Below are positions 2,051 to 42,900 of a stretch of 64,000 nt of DNA, piece after piece. Location: NCBI RefSeq assembly GCF_000504285.1, contig NZ_KI632511.1, positions 7,112,154 to 7,176,153 on the forward strand. Direction: 5' to 3'. The position numbers and the translations under genes were made by a program. The stretch is from Actinospica robiniae DSM 44927 (lineage in GTDB: Bacteria; Actinomycetota; Actinomycetes; Streptomycetales; Catenulisporaceae). Below the pieces are notes generated by a model that searched no databases, had not been told where the DNA came from, and saw nothing but the letters and a program-made list of their open reading frames with translations. The number at the start of each line of letters is the position of its first letter. Position 1 is the stretch's first letter.

Positions 2051-3172
2051 ATGGACCACCGCCCTCGCACCCTGGCCGACCGGCTCCCGCAGTTCCCGTG
2101 GGACCGGCTGGCACCGTATGCCCGCAAGGCCGACGTGCATCCCGGCGGACGGGTGGACCTGTCCGTCGGGACGCCGGTCGATCCGGTCCCGCCGGTGGTG
2201 CGCGCCGCGCTGATCGAGGCCGCGGACTGGCCGGGCTACCCGGTCACCCGCGGCACCGACGCGCTGCGCGCCGCCGCGCTGGGCTGGATGGAACGGGAGC
2301 TCGGCGTCGTCGGCGATCCGGGTGTGCTCCCGGTGATCGGCTCCAAGGAGCTGGTCGCCAACCTGCCGACGCTGCTCGGCCTGGGCGCGGGAGACCGGGT
2401 CGGCTATCCGGTGCCGGCGTATCCGACCTATGAGATCGGCGCGCTGCTGGCCGGGGCCGAGCCGGTGCCGACGCCGTTCGGCGAACTGCCGGACGCGGCG
2501 TCAGGTCCGGCGCCGCGCCTGATCTGGCTCAACTCGCCGGCCAATCCGCACGGCCAGGTGCTCGACGTCGCGCAGCTGCGCGAAGCCGTGGCCTGGGCGC
2601 GGGCCAACGACGCGGTGCTCGTCTCGGACGAGTGCTACGTGACCTTGGGCTGGGAGGGCGTGCAGCCGGTCTCGGTGCTGCACCCGTCGGTGTGCGACGG
2701 GGACTTCTCCGGGCTGCTGGCGCTGCACTCGCTCTCGAAGCGCTCGAACCTGGCCGGATACCGGGCCGCGTTCCTGGCCGGCGATCCGGCCCTGCTCAAG
2801 GATCTGCTGCTGGTGCGCATGCACGGCGGGATGATCATGCCCGGTCCGGTGCAGGCCGCGGTGGCGGCGGCGCTGGCGGACGAGGCGCACGCGCGCGAGC
2901 AGAAGGAGCGCTACCTCGCCCGGCGCGGGGTGCTGCGCACGGCGTTGCTGGCAGCCGGGTTCCGGATCGAGCACTCCGCGGCAGGTCTGTACCTTTGGGC
3001 CACTCGCGGCGAGCCTTGCTGGGAGACGATCGGCGCGCTCGCGGATCTGGGCATCCTCGCCGCGCCCGGGGAGATCTACGGCCCGGGCGGCGAACAGCAC
3101 GTGCGTCTCGCGCTCACGGCCACCGACGAGCGGATCGAGTCGGCGGCCGCGCGCCTGGCCGCGCTGCGCTGA
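2051..3172 (+). CDS. dapC: Succinyldiaminopimelate transaminase
   Basis: Class I/II PLP aminotransferase, 373 aa, predicted to interconvert N-succinyl-2-amino-6-oxopimelate and N-succinyl-LL-diaminopimelate with glutamate in lysine and peptidoglycan precursor synthesis. Visible motifs are NSPANPHGQVL (substrate and PLP site) and SLSKRSNLAGY with the Schiff-base lysine at about K230. ATG 2051 comes 11 nt after the fdxA stop and gives the usual family length; upstream codons overlap fdxA in another frame. The other succinylase-branch genes, dapD and dapE, are 2.7 kb downstream, past three opposite-strand genes. A strong hairpin follows the stop. Confidence 0.92.
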   Translation: MDHRPRTLADRLPQFPWDRLAPYARKADVHPGGRVDLSVGTPVDPVPPVVRAALIEAADWPGYPVTRGTDALRAAALGWMERELGVVGDPGVLPVIGSKELVANLPTLLGLGAGDRVGYPVPAYPTYEIGALLAGAEPVPTPFGELPDAASGPAPRLIWLNSPANPHGQVLDVAQLREAVAWARANDAVLVSDECYVTLGWEGVQPVSVLHPSVCDGDFSGLLALHSLSKRSNLAGYRAAFLAGDPALLKDLLLVRMHGGMIMPGPVQAAVAAALADEAHAREQKERYLARRGVLRTALLAAGFRIEHSAAGLYLWATRGEPCWETIGALADLGILAAPGEIYGPGGEQHVRLALTATDERIESAAARLAALR

Positions 3173-3193
3173 CGATGCGCTGAGCTGACCACG

Positions 3194-3227
3194 AAGACCG
3201 CCGGCTCCCGCGGGAGCCGGCGGTCTT
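3194..3227. terminator. Perfect 17-bp hairpin after dapC
   Basis: Positions 3194-3210 and 3211-3227 are exact reverse complements (AAGACCGCCGG...CCGGCGGTCTT), giving a stem of up to 17 bp just after dapC, followed by TCG. It is probably the terminator of fdxA-dapC. A second, imperfect hairpin (AGGGGGTCCCCGCG / CGCGGGGAACCCCT) lies at about 3263-3302, before the convergent gene. Confidence 0.7.
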
Positions 3228-3369
3228 TCGTGCCGGATCCGGCTGCGTCCCCGGACGAGATGAGGGGGTCCCCGCGCTCATCCCTTCGCGCGGGGAACCC
3301 CTCCGCCGTGTCCGCGTGGTCAGCAAGCCGGGCACCGGGACTGACGGCCGCTCAGACCGCGGCGCGCGT

Positions 3370-3795
3370 TCACGCCTGCAGGCCGGCGTGCTTCGGAGTG
3401 TAGGGGGCCGAGGCGAGGTCCGCGGCCATCTCCTGCTGCGCCTCGCGGGCCGCCGCGGCCGGGGCCATCGGCGCCGCCGCCGCGCCGGCGCTGTTGGCGA
3501 CGTTCGCGCCCGCGCTCTTGGCCAGGTCGCCGACCACCGGGATGTTGGAGAGCGGGCTGCTGCCGCCGGCGCCGGTCAGGTTGCCGACCAGGCCGCCGGC
3601 CACCGGGAGGCCGCCGAGCGCGCCGCCGCCCAGCCCGCCGACCGCCGGAAGGCCGCCGGCCAGGCCGCCGACCGCGGGCAGCCCACCGACCAGAGGCAGC
3701 GCGGCGGCCTGCGCGCTGGCCGCGCCGAGCACCGGGATGGCGACGGCCGCGGTCGCGACGGCGGCGGAGGCGATGCGACGTCCAGCGTGACTCAT
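3370..3795 (-). CDS. Small secreted Ala/Gly-rich protein, function unknown
   Basis: Protein of 141 aa with a clear Sec signal peptide: a basic start MSHAGRR, a hydrophobic Ala/Val core, then SAQA before the mature chain. The mature part has imperfect GLPAVGGL-type repeats in the first half and an Ala-rich C-terminus. No cysteine, catalytic motif or sorting signal was seen. The start at 3795 is chosen because a GAGG ribosome site lies about 9 nt upstream; the longer frame adds only charged sequence. It may be a structural or surface protein. The next gene upstream on this strand encodes another small exported protein. Confidence 0.7.
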   Translation of the reverse strand: MSHAGRRIASAAVATAAVAIPVLGAASAQAAALPLVGGLPAVGGLAGGLPAVGGLGGGALGGLPVAGGLVGNLTGAGGSSPLSNIPVVGDLAKSAGANVANSAGAAAAPMAPAAAAREAQQEMAADLASAPYTPKHAGLQA

Positions 3796-35772: not shown

Positions 35773-37149
35773 ATGCCGGGGAACATGCCCATTACGGACG
35801 GAAACGCGAACCCGGCCGACGTCTCCGGCGCGCGGCGGCGCTGGGGGAAGGCCGTGGTGATCGGCGGCGGATTCGCCGGCCTCGTCACGGCGAGGGTGCT
35901 CACCGACTTCTTCGTCGAAGTAGTGATCCTCGAACAGGATGAGCTGGACGAGAACGCAGGCGTCCATCCGGATGTGCCGCAAGGAAAACACGCGCACGGC
36001 ATGCTCGCGCGTGGCGGCCAGATCCTGGAGCGCCTGTTTCCCGGACTGCGCGCCGAACTCGAGGCCGCCGGAGCTCCCGTGTTCGACTACGGCGAATACG
36101 TCCACTTCCTTCTTCCCGAGGGCTACGCGCCGCGCGTGCACACGGGAGTGCCGCTGCAGACGTTCACCCGCGACGAGCTCGAACGCGTCATCCGCCGCAG
36201 GGTGCGAGCCCTGCCGCAGATCACGCTGGTCGACGGGGTGCGCTGTCTCGGACTGGCCGCCAAGGCGGACGGCCACGTCACCGGCGTGCTGCACAGCCTG
36301 GACGACGTCGTCGACGCAGAGTTCGTCGTCGACGCCTCCGGCCGATCGAGCGTGCTGACCGAATGGCTGGCCAGACTGCACGTCGAGGTGCCGCCGAAGC
36401 GCGTGGTCAAGGCGCGGGTCAGCTACACCTCGGTCGGCTTCGAGCGCTCGGACCGTGACGAGGTGGACTTCACCCTCGCCTACCAGATGACGATCGCGCC
36501 GGACGTCGCGCGCGGGGGCGTCGTGCTCGCTGTGGAGAACGACCGCTGGCTGTGCTCGCTGGTCGGCTACGAGGAGAACGTCCCACCCGTAGACGACGAG
36601 GGATACCTCCAGTTCGCCCGCGGCCTGGACAATACGCATCTCTTCAAGCTGCTCGAACACCGCCGCGGCCAGGACGGCGTGCGCCGGTACACCCACCTGA
36701 ACAACGAGTGGCGCCAGTTCCACCGCGTCCGGGCCTGGCCGGAGCGGCTGGTCGCCGTCGGCGACGCCGTCTGCGTGCTCAATCCGGTGTTCGGACAGGG
36801 CATGACGATGAGCGCCGTGCACGCCGAACTGCTGCACGAGATGCTCGCCGCGCGGGCGGAGGCCGGGGGCGGTCTCGACGGTCTCGGCCGGTCCTTCCAA
36901 GCCCGGCTGGTCCGCGCCATCCGTCCCGCCTGGACGCTCTCGAGCGGCTCGGACCTGATGTGGGACTCGCGGCACCGGCCGCCCGCCTCCGCGAGGGTCG
37001 CGCACTGGTACAACCGCCGCCTGCTCGCCGCCGCGGTGCGGGAGCCGGAGATCTGGATCCGCTTCGTCCGCGTGGTCAACATGATCGCGCCCCCGGCGAC
37101 GCTCTTCGCCCCCGGAGTGCTGGCCAAGGTCTTCGCCCGGACCGGGTAG
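35773..37149 (+). CDS. FAD-dependent oxidoreductase/monooxygenase
   Basis: Flavoprotein of 458 aa of the PHBH/halogenase-like group. The dinucleotide-binding site is AVVIGGGFAGLVTARVL, an FAD/substrate motif ends at DASGRSS, and the second FAD motif is VGDAVCVLNPVFGQGMTMS. A conserved PQGKHAHGMLARGGQI follows the FAD domain, as in epoxidase/hydroxylase relatives. The substrate is unknown. The start is uncertain (ATG 35773 or 35785; the frame is open to 35677). It lies 84 nt upstream of the KAP NTPase on the same strand and could be co-transcribed. Confidence 0.8.
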   Translation: MPGNMPITDGNANPADVSGARRRWGKAVVIGGGFAGLVTARVLTDFFVEVVILEQDELDENAGVHPDVPQGKHAHGMLARGGQILERLFPGLRAELEAAGAPVFDYGEYVHFLLPEGYAPRVHTGVPLQTFTRDELERVIRRRVRALPQITLVDGVRCLGLAAKADGHVTGVLHSLDDVVDAEFVVDASGRSSVLTEWLARLHVEVPPKRVVKARVSYTSVGFERSDRDEVDFTLAYQMTIAPDVARGGVVLAVENDRWLCSLVGYEENVPPVDDEGYLQFARGLDNTHLFKLLEHRRGQDGVRRYTHLNNEWRQFHRVRAWPERLVAVGDAVCVLNPVFGQGMTMSAVHAELLHEMLAARAEAGGGLDGLGRSFQARLVRAIRPAWTLSSGSDLMWDSRHRPPASARVAHWYNRRLLAAAVREPEIWIRFVRVVNMIAPPATLFAPGVLAKVFARTG

Positions 37150-37232
37150 CAGGGTCCTGCCGCGCGCTTTCCGCTCGTGAGAGAAGATGGGCGGACTCGT
37201 CTGAAAACGCGGAGCGCGCACCCGGAGGATTC

Positions 37233-39809
37233 GTGGACCGTCCCAGGCCGTCGTCCCAGCTCAGGCTGCTCAGCGACCGTCCCGTGACCACGCGGGCGAC
37301 GGGCGACCTGCTCGACCGCTCGCTCGAGGCCGAGCGCCTGGCCGCGCTGCTGCACGACTCCCGCGAATCCGCGCCGTACGTCTTCGCCGTGTACGCGGAC
37401 TGGGGGATGGGCAAAACCAGCCTGCTGCGGCTGACCGGGGAGCGGCTGTCCGAAACCGGGGACATCGAAGTGGTCTGGTTCAACGCCTGGCTCGCCACCG
37501 ACGGCCGCGCGCTGGAGATGATCGTCAAGTCGGTGCTCGACCGGCTCGATCCGAACTCGCTGCGCCGGCTCGCGCGCAAGCTGTCCGCGGACTCGAAGAA
37601 GACCTCGTGGGCCAGGGTCCTGCTACGCGGGCTGGCCGGCAGCGTCCACATGCACCACCTCGTCGACGGCATCTGGGACCACCTCGCCGTCGACGCCCGG
37701 ACCCGCGCCGACGCGGAATCCCTGTTCCGCTCGGCCGTCTCCGACTACGCCGGCGCGGACGGCTCCGGCACCCGGGAACGCACCATCGTCGTGTTCATCG
37801 ACGACCTCGACCGCTGCTCGGCCGACACGATCCGCGAGCTCTCCGCCGCGCTCAAGCAGTACCTCGCCGTGCCCGGGTTGGTCTTCGTCCTGGGCTGCGA
37901 CAGGTCCGTCGTCGAGGGCGCGATGAGGTTCGGCCCGACACAGCAATCGGCCGACGAGGCGAGCGGGCGCCGCTACCTGGAGAAGATCATCCAGGCCTCC
38001 TACGCCGTTCCCGCGCCCACCGACTCCCAGCTGGACAAGCTCATCGCCGGCTACGCCGATGCCGCCGGCGCAGCGAGTCTGTTCGGCGGCACGATGGTGG
38101 AGGCGGTCAAACTCCACACCGGCCGCAACCCCCGACGTATCAAGCAGCTGATGAACCGCCTGGTGGCCGAGTACCGGCTGGACCCCGACTGGCAGTCCCT
38201 CGGCGCCGAAGCCCTGTTCAGCGCGGCGATGCTGCAGGAGCTCTACCCGGAATTCCACCGCATGCTCGCCATGTCGGAGGACTTGGACCCGCTGGAGGAG
38301 TTCACCGGCTACCTCGCGGTGATGACGGCGGTCAAGGCGGCCGCAGCCGGCTTCGCGGACGCGACCACCGCGCTGCGCGAAGAGGCGGCGGAATGCCTGG
38401 AGCGCAACGGGATCCACCCCTCGGAGATGACTCCGGACAACCTGGCCGCGCTGGAGAGCGTCGTGCCGGAGAGCATCCCGCGGCTCGCGCACGACAAGGT
38501 CTTCACCGGATTGGTGAAGGCGCTCGTCGGCTCGGCCGCGGAGCGGGAAGTGCGGGCGAAGCTGCGGCGGCGGAAGCTGGCGGAGATCACGAAACCGCAG
38601 ACGGCGGAGCCGCTGGAGAGCGAGTACGGGCGACCCGAGACACAGGATTTTCGAGGGTTGACGGTCTTGTGGCTCGGTCGGCCGGGCAACCCCGATGTGG
38701 TCGAACGCATGGCCCGCGGTGGTGCATCGGTGTTCGGCGTACCCGACCTGGACCGGGCACGGAACGAGATGATGCGCCGGCGAGTAAGTGTTCTTATCAC
38801 CGGCCTCGCGCGAGAAGACTCGGGTGCGGGTGGCTTCGACGATATCGAGGCCCTGAGGAGCAGCGGATTTCGTGGCCAGGAGATCATCTACGCCGAATAC
38901 GTCAGTCAGACCTGGCGTGCGCGGGCGGACGAGATCGGCGTGCCGATCACGAGTGACCCCGAGGAACTGCTCGACCTCGTCGCGCGGGCGCGGTCGGTCC
39001 GACCTGTCGCGGCCCCGACGGAGCCTCCTGCGCCTACGCCCCGGGACCTCGTCGGCATGCGCGTGCTCTGGTTCGCCCCGTTCGACAACGTGCCACTGCG
39101 CGATCACCTCGTCGGCCGCGGCGCCGAAGTCTTCAGCGCCGCGAATCTCGAGGCGGCGACTCAACTCGTCCTTTCTCAACGCGTTAACGCTATCATCGCG
39201 GACCCTTTCCCGAAGTGGGAGGTTCTCAGCCTCCTGCCGAGTCTCCGTTCGGCGGATCCGGCTTCCGGCAAACCGCTTCCGGCGCTCATCCTCGCCCATC
39301 GCGTCACCCCGGAGCGGCACGCGCAAGCTACCGCGTCGGGCGTCGCGATCACCGAGGACACCGATGCCGCGACGCGGTGGCTGGCCGACCAGCGCGCCGA
39401 GCAGGTTCAGGAACTCCCCTCGGTCTCGCTCTCTTCGGACGAGCGCGACCGCGCGGTCGCCGATCTGCGCGCACTGGCGCGCGATGCGCAGCGGCGCTAC
39501 GACCAGGACGATCTCGACTACGCCGAGGCGCGCTGGGACGCGGTGCAGACTCTCGCGTTCACGATCGGCGACAGCGACCAGGCGTTGCGGGCGCGGCTGA
39601 TGAAGGCGCGCATCGCCCTGCGCAAGCGGCGCTACCCGTTGGCCATCCGACGTCTGAACGCGGCGCTGGACGAGCAGGCCTCGAAGCTCCTCGATGCCGA
39701 ACTCATGACGCAGCTCTACACCGACCTCGCCGCCGCGTACGAGGCGATCGGCGAGGAGCGGCAGGCGGCTGACGCGCGGGCGATGGTCCCGCGCGGCCCG
39801 GATGTCTGA
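37233..39809 (+). CDS. KAP family NTPase with tandem receiver-like domains and TPR-like tail
   Basis: Protein of 858 aa. The KAP P-loop domain has Walker A ADWGMGKTSLL (near residue 60) and Walker B VVFIDDLDRCSA (near 190), followed by the KAP-type GCDRSVVEGAM. The usual membrane helices are absent. After a helical region come two related alpha/beta domains (about residues 473-589 and 605-722) beginning GLTVLWLGRPGN and GMRVLWFAPFDN; both look like response-regulator receivers without the acidic phosphorylation site. The last 130 residues are helical and TPR-like. KAP NTPases are linked to phage exclusion and membrane complexes. GTG 37233 has GGAGG 4 nt upstream. Confidence 0.78.
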   Translation: MDRPRPSSQLRLLSDRPVTTRATGDLLDRSLEAERLAALLHDSRESAPYVFAVYADWGMGKTSLLRLTGERLSETGDIEVVWFNAWLATDGRALEMIVKSVLDRLDPNSLRRLARKLSADSKKTSWARVLLRGLAGSVHMHHLVDGIWDHLAVDARTRADAESLFRSAVSDYAGADGSGTRERTIVVFIDDLDRCSADTIRELSAALKQYLAVPGLVFVLGCDRSVVEGAMRFGPTQQSADEASGRRYLEKIIQASYAVPAPTDSQLDKLIAGYADAAGAASLFGGTMVEAVKLHTGRNPRRIKQLMNRLVAEYRLDPDWQSLGAEALFSAAMLQELYPEFHRMLAMSEDLDPLEEFTGYLAVMTAVKAAAAGFADATTALREEAAECLERNGIHPSEMTPDNLAALESVVPESIPRLAHDKVFTGLVKALVGSAAEREVRAKLRRRKLAEITKPQTAEPLESEYGRPETQDFRGLTVLWLGRPGNPDVVERMARGGASVFGVPDLDRARNEMMRRRVSVLITGLAREDSGAGGFDDIEALRSSGFRGQEIIYAEYVSQTWRARADEIGVPITSDPEELLDLVARARSVRPVAAPTEPPAPTPRDLVGMRVLWFAPFDNVPLRDHLVGRGAEVFSAANLEAATQLVLSQRVNAIIADPFPKWEVLSLLPSLRSADPASGKPLPALILAHRVTPERHAQATASGVAITEDTDAATRWLADQRAEQVQELPSVSLSSDERDRAVADLRALARDAQRRYDQDDLDYAEARWDAVQTLAFTIGDSDQALRARLMKARIALRKRRYPLAIRRLNAALDEQASKLLDAELMTQLYTDLAAAYEAIGEERQAADARAMVPRGPDV

Positions 39810-39828
39810 GCTCTGAAGCAGAGATCCC

Positions 39829-39918
39829 ATGTATGGCCCGATCCAGGGCCCTGGTTCCGGAACTTCCCGGATGTATAGACGCGCTCGGCGTTTCCTGCTA
39901 TCAACACATCCGATGTAT
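39829..39918. promoter_or_regulatory. Three ATGTAT sites at exact 42-bp spacing
   Basis: ATGTAT occurs at 39829-39834, 39871-39876 and 39913-39918, 42 bp apart each time (four helical turns). The last two are in GGATGTATAG and CGATGTATCC. The perfect palindromes CCAGGGCCCTGG and TTCCGGAA lie between copies 1 and 2. The cluster sits directly upstream of the GH95-like gene. Confidence 0.3.
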
Positions 39919-39965
39919 CCGCACCCACGCGGATCGCAGGCGCAATGACGCGTGCAGGAGGACCA

Positions 39966-42900
39966 GTGCTCACTCGAACCAGACCACGACACCCCGTGCT
40001 CGGCGCGGGGCTCGGTGTCGCGCTGATCGCGGCGCTAGCCGTCGCCGGAGGGACCGGGACGGCCGCGGCCGCCACTTTGACGACCGCTTGGCAGAACGGC
40101 GCGTTCTCGATGAACATCGGAGGTGTGGTCAGTCGCTCGGACGTGGTGCTCGGCGCGGCCAACACCGCCGCCAGCCAGTCCATGCCGCTGGGCAACGGCT
40201 CGCTGGGGGTGGCCGCCTGGGCCGCCAACGGCTTCACCGCCCAGCTCAACCGCAGCGACACCATGCCCAACCGGCTCTCGCCCGGGCAGCTGAACATTCC
40301 GGGGCTGTCCGCGATGACCTCGGCCTCGAACTTCACCGGCCATCTCGACGTGTACAACGGGGTGCTCGACGAGTCGGGCGGCGGGATGACCCTGCAGGCA
40401 TGGGTTCCGGCCGGCAAGGACGAGCTCGTCGTCGAGGTGACCGGCGCCGCCGCGAACGCCGCGGAGAGCGCCACGCTCAGCCTGTGGAGCGGACGGTCGC
40501 CGTCCACCTCGAGCTCCGGCGCGTACGCCGCGCTGGCGCAGACCTGGGTGGACAACAGCCAGACCGGCAACTCGGGCCAGACCTTCGGCGCCATGGCCGC
40601 GATCACCGCGGGCGGCGCGAACGTGACCGGCTCGGTGGTCAACTCGACCCAGGTCAAGGTGTCCTTCAACGCCTCGTCGACCGGCTCGTACTCGGTCGTC
40701 GTGGCCGCGCCGAAGTGGACCGGTGGCACCGCCACCTCCACGGCCAGCTCGCTGATCGGCTCGGACACGAGCACGGCCGCCTCGACGCTGCTGGCCACGC
40801 AGTCGTCCTGGTGGAACAACTACTGGGCCAATACCGGGCTGATCGAGGCGAACTCCTCCGACGGCTCGGCGCAGTACATGGAGAACCTCAGGACCCTGTA
40901 TCTGTACGACGAAGCGGCCTCGATGAAGTCCGGCGCGTACCCGGGCAGCCAGGCCGGCGTGGCGGACATGTTCGCCTACGACGAGGACCAGCAGGACTGG
41001 TACCCGGCCGGGTACTGGCTGTGGAACCTGCGCGGCCAGATCGCGGCGAACCTGAGCTCCGGCGCCTTCGCGGACAACGTCCCGATCTTCAACATGTATC
41101 TCAATGACCTGCCGGCGATCGAGTCGTGGACCAGCGCGCAGATGGGCGGCAAAGCAGGGGCCTGCGTGCCGGAGACGATGCGGTTCAACGGCAACGGGTA
41201 CTACAACGGCGGAAGCAACAGCTCGAACGCCTCGTGCGCGACCGCGTCGAGCCCGTCGTACAACGCCGAGGACATCACCAGCGGCGCCGAGCTCGCGCTG
41301 TGGATCTGGCAGCAGTACCTCGACACCGGCAGCACCAGCTTCCTGCAGACCTACTACCCGATCCTCGAGCAGACCGCGACCTTCCTGCTCGCGTGGCAGA
41401 GCGTCGGCTCGGACGGATTCCTGCACGCCACCGCCAACGCGCACGAGACGCAGTGGGCGGTGACCGATCCGACCACGGACCTGGTCGCGGACCAGGCGCT
41501 GTTCCCGGCGGTGGTCCAGGCCGCGACGATCCTGGGCACCGACTCCTCGCTGGTCTCGCAGCTGAAGACGGCCGAGAACGAGATCGAGCCGCTGCCCCGG
41601 GTGAGCACCTCGAACCTGTCCTCGCTGCTCAACGCGCAGCCCACCACCGCCTCCGCGGTCGCCTCGCTCGACGCTTCGGGCAACGACGCGATCGGCGATT
41701 CGTACCAGCCCTCTGCGACTCTCCGCAACGGCGAGAACATCGGGCTGGAGGCGGTCTGGCCGTGGGGCGTGATCGGCGACAGCACCACCGTCAACGGTGA
41801 CAACCTGACGGCGCTGGCCAACCGCACCTACAACTCCAAGCCGAACACCGACTCGAACGACTGGACCTTCGACGCCGTCGACGCCGCGCGCCTCGACAAC
41901 GGCTCGGCGGTCTCCTCCAACCTCGTCACCGAGACCGAGAAGTACCAGTACTACATCGACGGACTGGCGGCCTTCAGCCCGAGCTCCACGGACGAGCCGT
42001 ACATCGAGCAGTCCTCGACCGTGGCGACGGCCTTGGACGAGGCGCTGGCCACCGACTACGACGGCACCATCCGCTTCGCTCCGGCCTGGCCCTCGGGCTG
42101 GGACGGATCGGGCACCGTCTACATCCGCGGCGGCTCCAAGGTCGACGTGCAGGTGGAGAGCGGCACGCTGGCCACGGCGGCGATCCAGGCGGGCACGACC
42201 GGCACGCTGAGCGTGCGCAACCCGTGGTCCGGCTCGCAGGCCGAGGTGGTCAACGGATCGACCGGCGCCGTCGTCGTCGCCGCGACCACGGCCGCGACGC
42301 TGAGCGTCCCGGTCACGGCGGGCAGCACGTATCTGGTGGAGCAGCCGGGCAACCTCACCACCTCGCTCGGCTTCGTGCAGGTCACCGGAACCCAGGCGAC
42401 CACCTACAAGAAGCTCGGCGGCATCGCCCAGATCGGGCTGCCGGGCAACAGCGGCTCGGCGGAGGCTCCCTACGGCGGCACCGCGGCGACCGTGCCCGGC
42501 ACCGTGCAGGCCGAGAACTACGACACCGGCGGCCAGGGCGTGGCCTACAGCGTCAGCTCGGTGAACGGCAGCGCCAACAGCTACCGCTCGGACGGCGTCG
42601 ATCTGGAGGCCACCAGCGACACCAACGGCGGCGACGACCTCGGCTGGACCTCCGGCGGCCAGTGGTTCAAGTACACCGTCAAGGTGGCCACCGCGGGCAC
42701 GTACACGCTCAACCTGCGCCTGGCCGCGCCCAACGCCGTCACCGACGGCCTGCACATCTCCAACAGCTCCGGCAGCAACCTCAGCGGCAACATCAACGTG
42801 CCTTCCACCGGCGGATATCAGACTTGGACGACAGTGTCCGCGAATGTGACCCTGCCGGCCGGTACGCAGACGCTGACCCTCAACGAGGACAACGGCGGCT

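Follow-up and report, generated by a model that had tools for sequence, protein, structure and literature searches.

A predicted cytoplasmic KAP ATPase with two tandem receiver-fold domains in Actinospica robiniae, a possible regulatory member of an actinomycete KAP-receiver family

Known KAP ATPases and divergent receivers

Most of what is known of KAP P-loop NTPases (PF07693) comes from phage-exclusion systems and a neuronal scaffold, and little of it concerns mechanism; transmembrane helices inserted into the KAP domain are usual among them, though not universal. The protein analysed here, P0001 from Actinospica robiniae DSM 44927, shares the KAP domain with them, well above the gathering score, but has no inserted transmembrane helices, and C-terminal receivers such as it carries are absent from the descriptions of KAP proteins in the literature we found. 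Some KAP proteins are anti-phage, as stated in three papers (PMC8195603, PMC11846954, PMC12424860). QatA of the qatABCD system and PifA have, like P0001, the KAP domain at the N-terminus, and QatA is reported to form multimers and to bind DNA (PMC12424860). P0001 differs from both in its C-terminus, however, and there are no qatBCD-like genes among its identified neighbours in the window, by which we mean the whole stretch of 64,000 nucleotides that was analysed (contig NZ_KI632511.1, positions 7,112,154 to 7,176,153). Tmn, also a KAP-family NTPase (PMC11846954), contains two transmembrane domains whereas P0001 contains none. RdrA of the RADAR system is the top Foldseek match for the ATPase part of P0001, but no deaminase gene is present among the P0001 neighbours checked by Pfam.

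Atypical receivers depart from the standard active site. P0001 shares the receiver fold (PF00072) and a non-standard active site with atypical response regulators such as JadR1 from Streptomyces, for which direct binding of a small-molecule ligand is reported (PMC6930871). The output of response regulators such as JadR1 is DNA binding, whereas that of P0001 is a KAP ATPase, and in the family to which P0001 belongs the canonical lysine of PF00072 receivers is absent throughout. Like P0001, cRec and other histidine-kinase-free receivers of conflict systems are divergent receivers outside two-component pairs, and the papers on them propose that they are nucleotide-responsive switches or cyclic-phosphate processors (PMC8195603, PMC7824862). 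This likeness is one of description, and the NAD/ADP-ribose enzymes which the same papers report alongside cRec were not recognised near P0001.

Domains of the Actinospica protein

The P0001 gene (37233..39809; this and all following features of the window lie on the forward strand) is an intact open frame for a KAP-REC-REC-TPR protein of 858 aa, with neither a stop nor a frameshift in its 858 codons. The start codon is GTG at 37233, which is matched by the starts of homologues, and a ribosome-binding-like GGAGG (37224..37228), read directly, is placed 5–9 bases upstream. At a distance of 83 bases upstream there is a FAD-monooxygenase gene of like orientation, and co-transcription of the two is possible; promoter and terminator scans of 36900-40100 returned zero sites, which matches chance expectation. 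The downstream neighbour is a GH95-like/CBM6 glycosidase gene, and the other neighbours were assigned by Pfam to an MFS transporter, a CBM2 protein, an acyl-CoA dehydrogenase, a sigma factor and a sugar-type ABC transporter. The gene had been described from its sequence as placed among metabolic genes, and indeed everything up to 7 kb away belongs to metabolism or transport, with one sigma factor besides.

The KAP P-loop NTPase domain (aa 30-312; 37320..38168) was recognised by Pfam KAP_NTPase with an E-value of 1.7e-32 and 113.3 bits, compared with a curated gathering cut-off of 20; the other Pfam match above cut-off, AAA_16, covers the same region. Walker A (ADWGMGKT, aa 55-62; 37395..37418) and Walker B (aa 185-195, ending in DDLDRC; 37785..37817) are both intact, and among 32 family members G58, G60 and K61, the run D190-D191-L192-D193-R194-C195 and the triplet N299-P300-R301 are invariant. 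P0001 is therefore a KAP P-loop NTPase by score as well as by motif. No transmembrane helix was detected, the highest 19-residue Kyte-Doolittle mean being 1.47 at aa 203, and values of 1.7-2.1 were reached around aa 109-138 in some homologues. Both the intact KAP-type Walker motifs and the missing membrane helices had been noticed in the sequence-only reading, which holds on these two points.

A comparison of P0001 with the PDB sequences gave 0 matches. By structure, RdrA was found for the ATPase part by Foldseek at 2e-6, and in the VIA comparison it gave a Z of 15.3 with an rmsd of 7.7 over 330 residues, ORC/Cdc6-type AAA+ folds being equal in score. The nearest solved folds are thus oligomeric, namely the RdrA heptamer and the ORC/Cdc6-type ATPases. 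The KAP core is linked to the receivers by a helical region (aa 325-447; 38205..38573) whose helices were modelled by AlphaFold2 with a pLDDT of mostly 80-96.

Two receiver-fold domains follow, REC1 (aa 474-590; 38652..39002) and REC2 (aa 607-727; 39051..39413). Searched alone against Pfam, neither gave a match at E <= 1, and with Response_reg at E <= 0.01 24 of the 26 receivers in our set were matched (best 1.7e-11), the two misses being REC1 and REC2. As Pfam is silent on them, their homology rests on shuffle scores, alignment, the Response_reg matches within the family and the VIA match. The local score of REC1 against REC2 is 73, compared with 26.7 +/- 4.7 for shuffled sequences, and 0 of 2000 shuffles scored as high. 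One Streptomyces homologue has a single receiver, which itself matches Response_reg at 6.1e-5 and below the curated cut-off; against REC1 and REC2 this receiver scored 83 and 97 (0 of 2000 shuffles each).

In the structure predicted for REC2 together with the tail (mean pLDDT 85.1) REC2 consists of five beta/alpha units at a pLDDT of about 90; it was superposed on 3crn_A by VIA with a Z of 15.6 and an rmsd of 2.7 over 121 residues, and Foldseek matched it to solved receivers with a target-normalised TM of up to 0.78. REC1 in the whole-protein model (pLDDT mostly 87-96) shows the same five-unit pattern with the elements in the same order as in REC2. Receiver-fold membership is thus indicated for REC2 by its Z score and for REC1 by homology and model pattern. 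Two related receiver-like domains had been read from the sequence, with a structure search proposed as the check and a lack of relationship between them as the contrary case; the search with REC2 returned solved receivers, and the shuffle scores leave the two domains related. A recent tandem duplication was considered and rejected, as REC1 and REC2 do not group together and neither exceeds 34% identity with any relative; their end branches are long (2.34 and 2.77). A KAP protein of Streptomyces catenulae (L046, 7956-10478) also has a tandem pair of receivers, each with a phospho-acceptor aspartate, so that the tandem arrangement exists beyond P0001.

A phosphorylatable active site, consisting of the acidic pair, aspartate, Thr/Ser and lysine, was found in neither domain. 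REC1 has lost all of these including the phospho-acceptor; in REC2 the acidic pair is gone and the aligned aspartate D657 alone is kept. The suggestion that both domains lack the phospho-acceptor aspartate is therefore right for REC1 and wrong for REC2. Among 31 homologues, a tally which includes degenerate receivers and leaves out L026, L037, L042, L047 and L055, 27 have the acidic pair, 28 the phospho-acceptor aspartate and 22 Thr/Ser, while the canonical lysine position holds lysine in none; in two of them a lysine occurs elsewhere among the eight columns inspected. Degenerate receivers were also seen in three homologues (L043, L058 and L060). Degeneracy is special to P0001 and a few others and not a family trait. 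For the receiver alignment, near-duplicate, degenerate or gappy sequences were left out (L026, L032, L037, L039, L042, L043, L047, L052, L054, L055, L058 and L060), and from L046 the second receiver alone was taken.

The receivers also stand out by composition. Third-position GC is 0.75-0.80 in the receiver part compared with 0.94 in KAP and 0.90 in the tail, and the dip at 38613-39392, which is confined to REC1 and REC2, holds the lowest value among 214 overlapping local coding windows; of the bottom 13 of these, 12 fall in or across the receiver stretch. In the homologues the dip is smaller (mean -0.04, lowest -0.12), that of P0001 exceeding all 31. It could reflect relaxed constraint instead of a new function.

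The tail (aa 735-855; 39435..39797) is helical in both structure models, as the label TPR-like had implied, but by sequence the TPR label is weak, TPR_12 reaching an E-value of 0.29 and 11.8 bits compared with a cut-off of 30.1, so that the likeness to TPR repeats is one of helical arrangement. A search with the tail in 60 genomes gave a single other match, a long helical-repeat-like protein in a genome of the same genus (31% over 118 aa).

The actinomycete KAP-receiver family and its genomic sites

To collect relatives, one genome per species was scanned with a three-sequence alignment as query, and the best 80 of 411 loci were kept; a contig scan using the single P0001 sequence found zero relatives. 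Among these 80 loci a close group of 43 (L024-L066) comprises 36 with KAP plus receiver, three ClpC-KAP fusions, one KAP protein without a receiver (L061) and three broken frames, for which sequencing error may be the cause. The KAP-receiver and ClpC-KAP proteins, L061 and P0001 form one clade with an SH-aLRT support of 98, in a tree from which the broken frames L062, L065 and L066 were left out and in which the named outgroup does not lie on one side of a branch. All named hosts in this clade are actinomycetes. P0001 belongs to the actinomycete KAP-receiver family as we define it here, namely by membership in the KAP clade together with a C-terminal receiver, yet the typical member has one receiver and P0001 two. 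It stands beside a Phytohabitans protein with a support of 93, a join flagged as unsure, and because of its long end branch (1.51) its exact position in the tree is unsure. Searches for papers on a KAP-receiver fusion, with most subscription journals outside their coverage, found none. The family is apparently undescribed, yet a variant built of known parts.

Four proteins (L003, 7276-10257 on the forward strand, and L049, L050 and L063) are ClpC-KAP fusions, in which the ClpC N-domain, the D1 ATPase and a UVR/lid part are followed by a KAP NTPase that replaces the D2 ring. Their hosts are Streptomyces (on a plasmid), Mycolicibacterium, Actinocrispum and Crossiella; within the KAP-receiver clade the four group together (support 100), and no paper on a ClpC/KAP NTPase fusion was found in the literature searched. 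The genome of P0001 also encodes a second KAP protein (L002, G000:C1:5735957-5736667), 28% identical and outside this clade.

The family is patchily distributed. The P0001 gene is absent from the two other genomes of its genus and from all 13 other genomes of its family (1/14). A class-wide draw gave any match in 17 of 246 genomes, of which besides P0001 one alone was strong and reached the receiver, and in the genus Streptomyces a homologue was present in 20 of 199 genomes (E <= 1e-20). The Streptomyces homologues occupy one chromosomal position, with genes for an alanine-type aminotransferase/PEP carboxykinase on one side and a D-aminoacylase-like operon on the other. In 21 of the 43 close-group loci an aminotransferase gene lies upstream at a distance of up to about 2.4 kb, and in 22 a gene for a 425-aa aldolase-like protein lies downstream; in nine of the ten gene-bearing Streptomyces genomes covered by both surveys the aminotransferase lies within 0.9 kb, and in the tenth at about 9 kb. 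L034 may serve as an example, with neighbours encoding PEP carboxykinase, a SCO4983-family protein, the aminotransferase, an amidohydrolase and the aldolase-like protein, and further a sugar kinase, an IclR-type regulator, RidA and a GntP transporter.

Flanks of 1500 bases at 30 aminotransferase loci were too short for judging the site, and 20 longer stretches were used instead: one carried an intact gene, one a remnant, and 18 had no gene. The remnant, of a KAP-receiver gene (L159, about 1350-1690), consists of the first codons joined to the end of the receiver by an internal deletion. The pattern at this site points either to a vertically inherited gene that was lost repeatedly or to an old spot of insertion. 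At the P0001 locus itself an empty-site comparison found no shared flank, since the upstream FAD monooxygenase (matched in 9 of the 14 family genomes, P0001's own included) is at most 37% identical in the other genomes of the family. Elsewhere, the Saccharopolyspora copies are near GNAT and TsaD-type genes, the assignment to loci being read from gene order, and at L024 a Phd/YefM-type antitoxin gene and the short gene after it (2917-3413), likely a toxin-antitoxin pair, lie 4.6 kb before an Actinopolyspora KAP-receiver gene.

Possible functions

We tentatively favour the reading that P0001 is a cytoplasmic, AAA+-like KAP ATPase of the actinomycete KAP-receiver family which works as a regulatory switch. 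The invariant KAP motifs, the oligomeric nearest folds, the Response_reg matches of 24 of 26 receivers, the active-site tally and the Z of 15.6 for REC2 count in its favour, as do the clade support of 98, the fixed housekeeping site in Streptomyces and the lack of a close phage or viral relative; the patchy spread in Streptomyces and in the family of P0001, the lowest receiver GC3 of 214 windows and the long branch count against it, and so does the fact that neither a partner gene nor a histidine kinase nor a ligand turned up.

Judged by its fold, the KAP domain may assemble into an ATP-dependent oligomer, and in the family the C-terminal receiver would, again from the fold, control this assembly. 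The Mg-binding acidic cluster is mostly kept in the family receivers and the catalytic lysine never. This uniform lack of the lysine in 31 of 31 homologues, together with the loose Thr/Ser position, argues against an ordinary phosphorelay, and the signal might be Mg2+/phosphate or a small molecule, outside classical two-component relays. With the receiver chemistry of P0001 gone or nearly gone, protein contacts of the two pseudo-receivers and the TPR-like tail are what remains, and such contacts may have replaced the receiver input. We consider a role in stress or developmental signalling more likely than acquired phage defence.

Among the alternatives, phage defence survives best, though we consider it unlikely: KAP would trigger abortive infection or exclusion, with the receiver folds and the tail sensing an infection signal. 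The PADLOC models of PifA, QatA and PDC-S20 match P0001, the ATPase fold resembles that of RdrA, the patchy spread is as in defence genes, and two papers propose histidine-kinase-free receivers in conflict systems and KAP as a substitute for STAND NTPases (PMC8195603, PMC7824862). These matches reach domain level only, however, as they cover the KAP domain alone: the score for the QatA equivalog is 80.2 bits compared with a cut-off of 600, and the best stretch for PifA covers model positions 7-263 of 720. By tblastn, no close relative was seen in phage records, which gave one distant KAP match, or in viral contigs, which gave ten at 22-33% identity. KAP-domain matches occurred in 675 plasmid records; among the 30 listed the best, a ClpC-KAP fusion, alone reached 40% identity, and of the plasmid records examined it is the only one of the clade.

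The neighbours speak against defence as well. PADLOC on 132 neighbours of 16 loci (14 KAP-receiver, two ClpC-KAP) gave five families in no more than 10 proteins, chiefly mad3 and mad8, models which also match near other KAP genes or, for mad3, a window gene. The neighbours of nine other actinobacterial KAP loci (80 proteins) gave 19 families, among them AbiEi and CRISPR regulators, and 55 window genes gave 33, among the 25 listed mostly single-member PD-T4-6 models; the comparison is coarse, resting on codon-usage gene calls and on listings of families and not of distinct proteins. Defence genes are thus not clearly enriched near KAP-receiver genes relative to these controls. The sequence-only reading had taken P0001 for an acquired defence gene, proposed a context survey, and named homologues fixed in core genomes with non-defence neighbours as the contrary finding. 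The survey does not bear out the acquired defence gene, given the single Streptomyces site, the domain-level matches and the unremarkable neighbours; the contrary finding largely holds for the Streptomyces branch, where the housekeeping neighbours were found and the fixation was not (20/199). The case for phage defence is weak.

Drift is improbable, that is, a copy whose ATPase is intact while the receiver part decays under weak selection. The lost receiver active sites, the long receiver end branches (2.34 and 2.77), the GC3 dip deeper than in all 31 homologues and the internal-deletion remnant at the Streptomyces site agree with it, whereas the unbroken frame of 858 codons, the intact ATPase motifs, the coherent tail and the receiver folds still predicted for REC1 and REC2 do not. 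Least probable is a protein quality-control ATPase, in which the KAP ring would act like ClpC D2 with the receivers and TPR as adaptor or substrate-recognition modules. Four proteins of the clade do join the ClpC N-domain and D1 to a KAP in place of D2, but the KAP-receiver proteins have no Clp part, and beside their genes neither a protease nor an adaptor gene was recognised.

Returning to the regulatory ATPase, one may go further and regard KAP here as a motor with exchangeable modules (one receiver, two receivers, pseudo-receivers plus TPR, or the ClpC N-domain plus D1), whose receivers gate the ATPase ring without a histidine kinase and of which P0001 would be the partner-switched, pseudo-receiver end; this wider proposal is speculative and we hold it to be doubtful. 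A KAP branch wired to receivers or to the front half of ClpC would give a handle on KAP gating, for which P0001, with its receiver chemistry gone, is a natural experiment, and the wider interest lies in the exchange of modules, ClpC included, around one KAP subfamily.
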